From: Cyrtodaria siliqua
Taxonomy: Eukaryota; Mollusca; Bivalvia; Adapedonta; Hiatellidae
NCBI GenBank assembly: GCA_037043455.1
Contig: JAWPHD010005066.1
Location: forward strand, 62,001-126,000
Reading direction: 5' to 3'
DNA length: 64,000 nucleotides
Below are positions 57,131-63,189 of this stretch, one piece after another. Under the pieces are notes generated by a model. That model was not told the DNA's origin. It made no database searches and was given only the letters and a program-made list of their open reading frames with translations. Positions within the stretch are counted from its first letter, which is position 1. The number at the start of each line of letters is the position of its first letter. The translations under genes and the position numbers were made by a program.

Positions 57131-57607
57131 ACAGAATCTCTATTACACCTGTACTTAAACGAGAAACTAAAGGAACATGGACAATGGCGCGGATCTTTTT
57201 ACGGACAAAAAGAAAATAACGCTGTCTTAAATAAAATAAAACCGTGTATTAAGGAGATTGAGGAACAGTACAGGCGAGAACACGTTTATGAAGATTTCTT
57301 ATCACCGGCGAATTCAAAAGAGACAGTGTTCGCTCTGATGGACGACATCGTGATTTTAGATGATATCCATTGGGGTCGTGTTTTGTCGATATTTGCGTGT
57401 GCTGGACTATTGTTCGAAGAGTGTATCACTCACGCCCATTTCAATAAGCTGTACATAATTTTGGACAACGTCGTTTGTCATTTGCACGTCAGAAAAGTGG
57501 AAGATTGGATCTGCGCCAAAGGTGGATGGATGATGTTCCCTTACGAACCGAAGCATAACAAACATTCGTTGCACTCTGTTACTATTTATTATTGCCATTT
57601 GGAATAA
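57131..57607 (+). pseudogene. Bcl-2-like apoptosis regulator, probably viral
   Basis: Uninterrupted 158-codon frame. HWGRVLSIFACAGLLFEE (about 57368-57421) has the BH1 pattern of Bcl-2 family proteins, whose hallmark is a W-G-R core before a helix. DWICAKGGWMMF (about 57503-57538) matches BH2. An N-terminal amphipathic helix, LLHLYLNEKLKEHG (57140-57181), fits helix 1/BH4. I see no clear BH3 L-x-x-x-G-D and no C-terminal membrane anchor. Bcl-2 proteins control mitochondrial outer membrane permeability; pro- or anti-death activity cannot be read from this. There is no in-frame ATG between the stop at 57128 and the first at 57338, so the start is lost, shifted or in an upstream exon. Its stop lies 6 bases from the convergent ORF at 57614, a viral-style packing. 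Confidence 0.65.
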
Positions 57608-57613
57608 AATGGT

Positions 57614-57952
57614 TTAAATTCTGAACGTTGTCATATCAATGTTATTAATGTCCTGATCAACTTGTCTAGTGTTTCTTCTTTGGGCTAATCTACGATTTTC
57701 ATCGGGATCGGAATTAGTTGTGATCCTTCTCTTTAGAGAATTGTCATCTCCTGCCTCTGGAGGGATGGATGCAATGAAATGTTCCAAGTATCTCTCTATG
57801 TGCGTTCTTCCGATTAAGAGATACGCAATAGCATAACTTCTGTTGTCTTTCGAAATAACAGTACTCAGCATAAAGTCAACGGATTCAGTTAATTTGTACA
57901 ACTCTTCCATAATGGTGTATTCGCATACAGTTTTATCTAGCAATTCAATCAT
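57614..57952 (-). pseudogene. Viral-type ORF, function unknown
   Basis: 112-codon frame starting MIELLDKTVCEYTIMEELYK and ending in a charged tail (SLKRRI, ENRRLAQRRNTRQ) that could be a nuclear localisation signal. Not recognised. Frames of similar composition continue upstream on the same strand (58016-58213, 58260-58825), so it may be the 3' end of a larger broken gene. Convergent with the Bcl-2-like frame. Confidence 0.45.
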
Positions 57953-58015
57953 TTTGTAATGGCTTTCTCTGAAACAAGCTGTTAAAGTTTTCTTTAGATA
58001 TTTCGCCCGAATTTC

Positions 58016-58213
58016 TTAAAGTGTATTTTTTTCGTTCGTTTCCAGTATCTTATACTCCTCGGGCCGTAGAGCATAACAGTTCACCAGTCTAAATCCTCGT
58101 CGAGGATAACATATCGGTATAACTTCGGCAATACTCATTTTAAGCCTATTGAGAAGAAAAGCATTCTCTCCATCGACACATAACTGAATATTTACTGTTT
58201 GGAACCCATCCAT
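58016..58213 (-). pseudogene. Viral-type ORF fragment, function unknown
   Basis: 65 codons including DGENAFLLNRLKMSIAEVIP and GFRLVNCYALRPEEY, globular-looking composition. Separated from its neighbours by stops and shifts. Probably part of the same decayed reading unit as 58260-58825. Confidence 0.4.
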
Positions 58214-58259
58214 CCAGTCGTTACAGATTGCAAGTAGACATTATTGCATTGGCATGTCG

Positions 58260-58825
58260 TTAAACAAATTCACGCAAGCAAAAAAATGTGCTGTCACTTA
58301 AAAAACATAACTCTTCTCCTACTATCGAATACTGATTTGGATTTGAAGTCGACAAAAAGCGCCTGACATGTTCGTTTAGTTGCAATCTACACCATCGAGT
58401 TCCGTTGAAATAGTTCGCAAAATATGCCTTCTCGTTTTCGTCTTCAAGGTCTTCACAGAAAGACAATGCGACGTGTTGAGCCTCATAGCATTTAGCCAAC
58501 GGAATCATTTCGTTTCGGTAGCCTAAAATGTCCAGATGATAATCAAACAACTCCCGGTGTTGAGGACTAGAGAGCGCATTAATTTTGACTTTCCTTAAAT
58601 CGCTTGTTGGAGTCCAAGTCAAAAGTTTGAGAATGTAATTTTGAATGGCGTTGTCGTCATCGCATTGATTACAGAGTGGTATCTGATTGATAAATTCAAA
58701 CTGCGTTTGGATGGACAGCATCCAGCGCATTTACGAATTAGATGATGATCAAACTGAGCAAATTTGATTTCAAAGCCAAACTGTACAAGTCCACGTCTGG
58801 TATTCTCACGACGAATGTGTCTCAT
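58260..58825 (-). pseudogene. Viral-type ORF, frameshifted, function unknown
   Basis: Two overlapping frames: 58619-58825 begins MRHIRRENTRRGLVQFGFEI; 58260-58730 (156 codons) continues with balanced, non-repetitive composition (for example HRELFDYHLDILGYRNEMIP and YFANYFNGTRWCRLQLNEHV). The overlap suggests one gene broken by a shift near 58715. Codon use and the lack of repeats distinguish it from chance frames in this window. Not recognised. Confidence 0.5.
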
Positions 58826-60600: not shown

Positions 60601-60633
60601 GAGCAGCGGTTATGAAGCCTGCATATCACAAGC

Positions 60634-61143
60634 TCAAAAGTACAACTCATCGCGATTAACATAGGTTGGCTGATCATCAAAATAGTTCACAGATTTTATG
60701 ATCACATTATCGATGGCGTCCGATCTGTATTTTTTCGAGTATAAATGGAAGGTGGTAAACGATCGGTTGCACGAGGTAAGCATCCGTGAACAAAGAAAGC
60801 TCTGCTCAAAGAATTTCACGATATTATCATTATCGTACCCCATTTCCTCCTTATGTACGTAAAGCAAATGTATTAACATGATGACATGTTTCGGCAACAG
60901 TTCACTTACACGGGTTTCGATTCTATAAAACAATCGAATCAGTTCGTGGTGTATTTCACTGCATTCCTTTATATGATCGACGCTCTGAATTAGTGCCGAT
61001 TTCAACTCCTGACCATACATGAGACATGTGTTTACTGAAGTTCTGTTGTTGTTCACCGAATTTGTTTTAATATTATCCGAATCGTTGATTAGAGTCACCG
61101 CGACAGCATCGGGTACGACAATCGATCTTCGCTTTTCAAACAT
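60634..61143 (-). pseudogene. Viral-type ORF of 169 codons, function unknown
   Basis: The longest clean non-repeat frame in the block, starting MFEKRRSIVV and ending YVNRDELYF. Predicted mostly helical, with ELLPKHVIMLIHLLYVHKEE as a hydrophobic segment; no signal peptide. Not recognised. It overlaps the 3' end of the broken frames at 61110-61870. Confidence 0.5.
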
Positions 61144-61870
61144 TTCTTCCTATAAACGTGAATATTTAGAGTACCGGAGTGAATAGAATCCAGCGTCGTG
61201 CAAACGCTGCAGACCCAAAGCGGTTTTGAGATTTTGCAATTCATGTCCTTGATTTCGTTTAGTGCCAGCTGGATCGTGCTGATTGGTCCTTGATAGTTAA
61301 CGCTAAACGAAACGGAGTTGTTGCTCGAAATGTTGTTTTGTAGCGAGTCATAGTCATAGTTCGCATCATCTTTTCAATTTGTGCCATTGGCTTGCCTTTT
61401 ATCTCGTAGAAGTTTTTTCGGCAAAGGTCGTTCGAAAGTAGTTGTCAAGTGAGCTACTCTGTTCTTAACGCAGGCCAGAGTGTCATAATCGTTCAAGTTG
61501 TAGATCGCCACAGAACCTGCATTCTCTAAATAGTCTCTACGTCTGTATGTCTAATACGTCTTAGCGAGTATCGACAGAAACATCAAGAACCCGTTTAGAT
61601 TTGGACAGATACGAAACGTACCGTTCGATCGACTGCATCGGAATCATTGCTGCTCTCATTTCATCAGGAACCGGTATTTCTATACAACCCAAACATTTTC
61701 CATCGCAAACGTAAGCGTTGTGGTCACGGATAAAAAACATAAGATCTTTCTCGCGCTCGAACAGAAATTACAAGGGGACGTGCTTTTCGATCTTAATACG
61801 TTAAAAAGAAACATTAGCATTGTACGGTGCAACAAATTTCCGTTTGCACATATTATCAAATTTTGAGAAC
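61110..61870 (-). pseudogene. Broken viral-type gene with Cys cluster
   Basis: Several open segments in changing frames. One at about 61590-61770 contains CDGKCLGC, a zinc-binding-like cluster. A later one at about 61110-61528 contains NLNDYDTLACVKNRVAH and ISTIQLALNEIKDMNCKI, interrupted by a stop. Composition matches the neighbouring viral frames. Not recognised. Confidence 0.4.
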
Positions 61871-61962
61871 GCTTTTCTCCTTTGAGACGATAAAATGCCT
61901 TTTGTTTATCAAAAGCGAATAATCCGTGTAAATGACTGTGGCGATGTGTTCAATCATTAATA

Positions 61963-62549
61963 TTAATTGTAGTTGACCACCAATATTATTGGATTTGTCG
62001 TCGCTTGTTTGACGAGCTGTTGGTTGTTTATCACGTTGATGGGATAAAAACACCGACTCGATATATTATCTCTTAAATACCTAACTTTCAACCACCAAAC
62101 TTCGCACACATTGTACTGGTTGTTTAGTCGAGAGTATTTGCTCAAGAAAATATTATATTTCCTAAGAATCAATTTCCTTGCTGTTTTCGCATGCTCATCG
62201 TACGACGGATTTGCGAAAAATATTAAGGCTGCTGGAAAAAAAAGTTTGAAGTAGTAGAAGTTTTCTGGAATAATAGCCTTCCAATTTGTCACTGGCAACT
62301 CAGAGAGACAACACCGATTAACGTTATCATACAACTTGCCATTTTTATTTGTGGAACAAACAAATGCATGAATGCGTTGCAAACGTTCAAATACTTCCTA
62401 TCACGATACCGATTAGCCACGAATTCTCCAAGCTCACAAGCGCTTAACGGTTGACAACGTTTCAATATTTGTCAGATGTTATGTGAGAAACAAAATTTCC
62501 ATTTTATGAATTTAGGCAAAACATCTAGAATTACTTCTTTCGAAATCAT
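61963..62549 (-). pseudogene. Broken viral-type gene, divergent partner
   Basis: ATG at 62547-62549 begins MISKEVILDVLPKFIKWKF, closed by a stop after about 28 codons. The 139-codon frame 61963-62382 carries on with CLSELPVTNWKAIIPENFYY and VCEVWWLKVRYLRDN. A frame change lies between them, near 62380-62470. The LPxFI-type opening recalls an F-box-like N-terminus, but this is weak. It is transcribed away from 62681. Confidence 0.45.
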
Positions 62550-62680
62550 TGTCCACTTGCGAAAACATTTATATGCTAATACCCAACCTTAAATACGTGA
62601 TATGACCTCTTCGTGCATTATTTTATTAATCCAGTATAAAACGATTGCCAGATAAGAGAAACTTCATAACAGCTAACACC
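62550..62680. promoter_or_regulatory. Candidate divergent promoter
   Basis: TATAAA at 62635-62640 lies 41-46 bases before the plus-strand ATG at 62681. On the minus strand, TATAAA at about 62568-62573 lies about 20-25 bases before the ATG at 62549. The layout, two TATA boxes facing outward in 131 bases, fits a compact DNA virus promoter. Confidence 0.5.
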
Positions 62681-63189
62681 ATGGAATCGAACAGTCTTCG
62701 AAAGAAACTTACTCGATATACACACATAACAATGGCGATAGGAAATTATACGACACGGGTAAACGGATCCAAGAACAGGGGAAAGTAATTTGGCGGAACC
62801 AAGCTTCGCGGGAAGAAATCATTCAGCAGTTGGCATTGCACGATCAGAAATTTCCACGATGGCTTTGGGTTGCTGATGGAAGCGACGCTTACTGTTGTGA
62901 GCCGTTGAAGAATCAAACGATTGGTGTACTCGAGAAAATAGTTCGACATCCCGATTGAATGTTCGAGTGAAAACGATATGTGCGACATACTGAAGATCTG
63001 AAACACCAAGAAAGGACTCCCAGTCCGGCGGTTATCAAAACCGTCATCGGTGGCAATTTCGCAGATCCAGACAGAGCGATACTTATCACCAGTGAAATCA
63101 AGATGCATATGAGGTATCTCTACAAAGATTGGGAGAGATATGAGTTCCAGGAAGCTGTACCAAAATCAGAATTACCGATGAGATTTTGA
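62681..63189 (+). pseudogene. Broken viral-type gene, function unknown
   Basis: ATG in good context (ACACCATGG) opens MESNSLRKKLTRYTHITMAI, stopped at about 62788. The end of the gene is the 69-codon frame to 63189, with SPAVIKTVIGGNFADPDRAI and MRYLYKDWERYEFQEAVP. At least two frame changes lie between. The reverse frames over the same stretch (up to 120 codons) are taken as shadows. Not recognised. Confidence 0.5.

Follow-up and report, generated by a model that had tools for sequence, protein, structure and literature searches.

Herpesvirus-like sequences that have become part of an animal genome have been described in several reports. In amphioxus, an integrated herpesvirus with an intronless terminase gene was reported in 2010, and the same account places four IAP-3-like genes near the virus (PMC2994540). 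Malacoherpesvirus-like elements containing a terminase were described in Branchiostoma belcheri and Capitella in 2017 (PMC5552708), and BelcheriHV-1, presented in 2025, is a nearly complete integrated genome (PMC12373286). Few invertebrate herpesviruses are known, and endogenous copies are among the chief means of tracing their former hosts and their age. Here we analyze a block of about 6 kb (positions 57131-63189) within a 64,000-nucleotide (nt) stretch of contig JAWPHD010005066.1; this whole stretch is called the window. An earlier note on this DNA had proposed that the block is an integrated, herpesvirus-like sequence and had pointed to elements in amphioxus and other invertebrates as precedent, a precedent that the published elements of amphioxus and Capitella do provide (PMC2994540, PMC5552708). 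We are confident that this block is what remains of a fragment of a herpesvirus-like virus (order Herpesvirales), endogenous and now decayed. This reading is based on two ordered terminase matches, a similarity to Bcl-2, an excess of long reading frames, the gene layout, broken frames, and repeats at both flanks.

Two minus-strand pieces resemble portions of a herpesvirus-type terminase (Table 1). The region of tripartite terminase subunit 3 matched by the piece 60110-59952 presumably extends from Walker B to motif III. The second piece, 59134-59012, corresponds to positions 321-345 of the 349 in Pfam DNA_pack_C, with an E of 0.0032 and a score of 17.0 bits that stays under the cut-off (22.8), and it also matches a nuclease-domain chain in PDB (4iox, E 0.53) and residues 663-683 of a full-length terminase (6m5v, E 1.8). 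Both matches are to one protein and lie on one strand in the correct order, separated by 991 nt (~330 codons) where the reference has 361 residues. With such spacing, an intron would not fit between these segments; the remaining gene is not recognized. The presumed middle of the terminase is motif-like by eye, but has no family or PDB support, yielding only chance-level Pfam rows. When the matched segments were scored against all 2,985 six-frame pieces of at least 15 amino acids (aa) in the window, the ATPase segment scored 65 at 60110-59952, with 37 for the runner-up position, the C-terminal segment scored 57 at 59134-59012, with 31 for the runner-up, and reversed segments scored 37 and 34 at best; since the segments had been picked by the earlier matches, these values show a margin rather than provide an independent test. 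On the antisense strand of the terminase stretch, none of ten pieces matched a terminase in Pfam. The earlier note had named a profile search as the test on which its reading could fail; in that search the terminase was matched by two ordered, spaced pieces (DNA_pack_C and PDB subunit 3). Thus, the terminase signatures it had claimed are present, and the sequence is consistent with both the ATPase and the nuclease parts of a herpesvirus-type terminase, in order, through matches that are weak singly and consistent jointly.

The clearest match of the block is a gene that the earlier note had overlooked. Judged by its sequence, the plus-strand frame 57131-57607 encodes a Bcl-2-family protein: the piece 57131-57604 exceeds the curated cut-off of Pfam PF00452 (E 2.7e-11; 44.3 bits against 31.4), and in PDB it matches 128 distinct sequences with an E of 1 or less, BCL2-like 10 being the best of the 60 listed (E 1.5e-6). 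The NCBIfam model TIGR00865 is matched below its cut-off (E 3e-6), and the Pfam M11 family only at E 0.12. The stop of this frame (57605-57607) and that of gene X on the minus strand (57614-57616) are arranged tail-to-tail with 6 nt between them, and there is an AATAAA at both ends. This motif occurs at only three non-overlapping sites per strand in 56990-63290, below the 4.6 and 5.4 expected from composition. Such an arrangement is more in keeping with a compact DNA-virus genome than with a host exon.

The Bcl-2 frame could instead be a host exon or retrocopy that lies beside the viral fragment by chance, which we regard as possible but unlikely. In pro-survival Bcl-2 genes, a single exon usually holds the four BH motifs and a separate one the membrane anchor (PMC7022251), and the described malacoherpesviruses carry BIR domains (PMC5552708). 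In the block, a membrane tail is not seen by eye, so that the frame appears as a Bcl-2 domain without its anchor, as expected of a host exon. However, no GT donor follows the codon at what we take to be the position of the cellular Bcl-2 intron, and the 6-nt spacing and paired AATAAA motifs also stand against a host exon. A BIR domain was not matched by Pfam in 39 block pieces, although 6 kb is a small share of a genome of malacoherpesvirus size. In the literature on Bcl-2 and herpesviruses or malacoherpesviruses, as far as our incomplete coverage extends, no Bcl-2 gene of an invertebrate herpesvirus was found, which is not a claim that none exists.

The block as a whole is rich in long frames. 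Region 57001-63200 contains eight stop-to-stop pieces of at least 100 aa, seven of them at least 120 aa, while dinucleotide shuffles of the same region have means of 2.0 and 0.6, respectively, and none of 1,000 shuffles reaches either observed count. The longest piece (171 aa) is equalled or exceeded in 33 of the 1,000 shuffles; thus, the signal lies in the number of long frames. Several of the genes are broken. The Bcl-2 frame is interrupted once, by an internal in-frame stop close to where it seems to begin, gene X has one internal stop and one frame change, frame W at the right end has two internal stops, and the terminase pieces are not all in one reading frame. Because broken genes and tandem repeats on both sides occur together in a single contig, the block is most likely a decayed, integrated fragment. 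The consecutive frames on both strands and the repeats on both sides, as described in the earlier note, are therefore borne out, and its interpretation of a herpesvirus-like, integrated block is supported, with the broken frames and the repeat flanks favoring integration. Other parts of its description have exceptions. It had called the frames non-repetitive; the frame excess holds, but a C-rich microsatellite (60477-60519) sits inside the block. The gene ends it described as tight are so where the genes converge, but the divergent frames Z and W lie ~280 nt apart. Lastly, it had every frame broken, but the 171-aa piece 61149-60637 (minus strand), taken as a piece, is open.

If the terminase is viral, it might still come from a mirusvirus-like or phage-like duplodnavirus rather than from Herpesvirales, an origin we consider very unlikely. 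Mirusvirus terminases also have ATPase and nuclease domains (PMC10132985, PMC12768974), and the profile libraries used included no mirusvirus model. However, the profile that matched is the herpesvirus one (DNA_pack_C), and a search for phage (Caudoviricetes) terminases in PHROGs returned no families for any of ten pieces at E up to 10. In addition, mirusviruses have been reported from unicellular eukaryotes (PMC12768974), whereas a Bcl-2 gene would point to an animal host.

Equally improbable, in our judgment, is that the terminase matches arose by chance, the block being made up of host pseudogenes or noise. The single E-values (0.0032, 0.39, and 0.53) lend themselves to this explanation, and a series of observations weighs against a herpesvirus-like fragment. 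Each terminase match is by itself below accepted thresholds, and an unrelated PDB chain ranks first for both pieces (E 0.17 for 60110-59952 and 0.25 for 59134-59012). Walker A and the terminase N-terminal domain are not recognized (Y1 and 60360-60118 have no Pfam or PDB match), and no PDB match was obtained for four pieces that lie between the matched ones or immediately precede them. In the codon test, their own frame is not favored in X2, 60360-60118, and 59134-59012. Two of eight comparison stretches are nearly as dense in long frames (6.9 versus 8.0 per 6.2 kb). No relative was found in viral contigs, in one genome-contig scan, or in a protein collection; in this last, the Bcl-2 query had words in common with only 24 candidates, so the collection is probably poor in animal proteins and its silence weighs little. 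On the other side, accident would have to produce two matches to one protein on the same strand, ordered and spaced, with wide score margins, together with more long frames than the shuffles contain. The least probable explanation, and a highly unlikely one, is that a free virus or contaminant was misjoined to host repeats in assembly: in-frame stops and frame changes in several genes are unlike a live virus, and tandem repeats adjoin the block on both sides.

Table 1. Features of the putative herpesvirus-like block and its flanks (positions in the window)
Feature	Position	Strand	Basis
Left flank, 23-bp tandem repeat	56264..56995		Repeat scan
Bcl-2-family frame (predicted apoptosis regulator), in-frame stop near apparent start	57122..57607	+	Pfam, PDB, NCBIfam, codons
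AATAAA, 24 nt beyond gene X stop	57585..57590	-	Motif scan
AATAAA, overlapping Bcl-2 frame stop	57603..57608	+	Motif scan
Gene X, function not assigned; pieces of 156, 74, and 133 aa, frame change and internal stop	57614..58730	-	Frames
Putative terminase piece, C-terminal end of nuclease domain	59012..59134	-	Pfam DNA_pack_C, PDB 4iox, 6m5v
Presumed terminase middle, decayed	59135..59951	-	Inferred from position
Putative terminase piece, ATPase region	59952..60110	-	PDB tripartite terminase subunit 3 residues 302-348, E 0.39; Pfam Terminase_6N, E 0.2
Frames Y1-Y4, upstream of terminase	60634..61767	-	Frames, codon preference
Frame Z	61963..62397	-	Frame list
Frame W, two internal stops	62677..63189	+	Frames, codon preference
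Right flank, 4-bp and 5-bp tandem repeats	63294..63766		Repeat scan

The other frames of the block (Table 1) have no recognizable relatives in the collections searched. Gene X matches no family at the thresholds used in Pfam, PHROGs, and NCBIfam, giving only weak, chance-level rows, and PDB searches of X1 and W1 likewise gave only such rows. The Y frames, none of which matches a Pfam family, are candidates for the N-terminal part of the terminase, for a separate gene, or for both. Frame Z has no match in Pfam or NCBIfam and no relative in viral contigs, and the first piece of frame W also lacks a viral contig relative. A structural route was tried with two frames, but AlphaFold2 without an alignment gave mean predicted local distance difference test (pLDDT) values of 40.9 and 46.1, too poor for a fold search. 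Among 40 pieces searched against Pfam, three have an E-value <0.01, two of them in the block (the Bcl-2 frame and the DNA_pack_C piece) and one, of Tc1 type, beyond it; all others are at 0.08 or weaker.

Within 56900-63300 no convincing terminal or internal viral repeats were seen, and no transposase was found among the scanned block pieces. Outside the block, a Tc1-type transposase has left a trace at 63775-63999 (Pfam HTH_Tnp_Tc3_2, under its cut-off with E 0.0077), which runs off the end of the window. Elsewhere, two large satellite arrays with related units in opposite orientation occupy 38271-49406 and meet near 44.2-44.5 kb; by eye, their consensus units are reverse complements, and GC skew flips from about -0.47 to +0.48. 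A retrotransposon fragment at 31310-33788 apparently comprises two tandem copies, each beside the same 20/33/53-bp repeat, and includes a reverse transcriptase at 33090-33788 (Pfam RVT_1). Decayed reverse transcriptase pieces are also present at 4978-5480 on the minus strand (Pfam RVT_1), and a 159-aa frame at 14842-15318, also minus strand, has no Pfam match at E 0.01. No transfer RNA or Rfam match was found anywhere in the window.

From these features we infer how a herpesvirus-like fragment may have arisen and what its genes once did. In the live virus, the terminase encoded on the minus strand would, judging from its family, have used its ATPase to move DNA into the capsid and its C-terminal nuclease to cut the DNA. 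The protein of the convergent Bcl-2-like gene, again going by its family, would have kept the infected cell from undergoing mitochondrial apoptosis. A portion of the viral genome would then have been inserted into germline DNA of the host, after which the fragment would have gathered stops, frame changes, and the microsatellite; both the terminase and the Bcl-2 gene are now most likely inert. The virus is likely to have been affiliated with Malacoherpesviridae, a putative assignment. Its host was probably an invertebrate and perhaps a mollusc, as suggested by the character of the flanking satellites and by the view of the earlier note.

Since integrated herpesvirus-like elements are already known in invertebrates, the Bcl-2 neighbor would be the new part, if it is confirmed as viral. 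There is about an even chance that an invertebrate-infecting herpesvirus lineage, known only from this block, captured its own Bcl-2 gene and fought apoptosis at the mitochondrion, in contrast to the BIR (IAP-type) proteins of known malacoherpesviruses. A Bcl-2 gene beside the terminase would, if true, mean that invertebrate herpesviruses have not all relied on a single means of blocking apoptosis. The fossil terminase would add a record of an invertebrate herpesvirus, and the block can be used to look for more copies in related genomes.

The block would share with the elements of amphioxus (Branchiostoma floridae scaffold 217; BelcheriHV-1) and Capitella teleta a herpesvirus-type terminase accompanied by other viral genes in an invertebrate or cephalochordate genome (PMC2994540, PMC5552708, PMC12373286), and repeats are described at the flanks of BelcheriHV-1, as at the block (PMC12373286). 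The comparison is one of descriptions rather than sequences: in both amphioxus species the element is a region of ~150 kb with genes that are largely open, whereas the block is ~6 kb, broken, and includes a Bcl-2 frame. A Bcl-2 gene in a herpesvirus setting is also represented by BHRF1, KsBcl-2, M11, and vNr-13 (PMC7022251, PMC9371342). These, however, are from vertebrate viruses, while the frame in the block is broken and was compared directly only with M11, through Pfam. Herpesvirus genes in host chromosomes are likewise found in integrated alloherpesviruses of fish, among them Teratorn and the sturgeon virus AciHV-3. Teratorn is fused to a piggyBac transposon, whereas the scanned pieces of the block gave no transposase, the Tc1-type trace lying outside it. 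AciHV-3 resembles the block in a second respect, as this integrated sturgeon virus is described as having a Bcl-2-like gene (PMC12031113).
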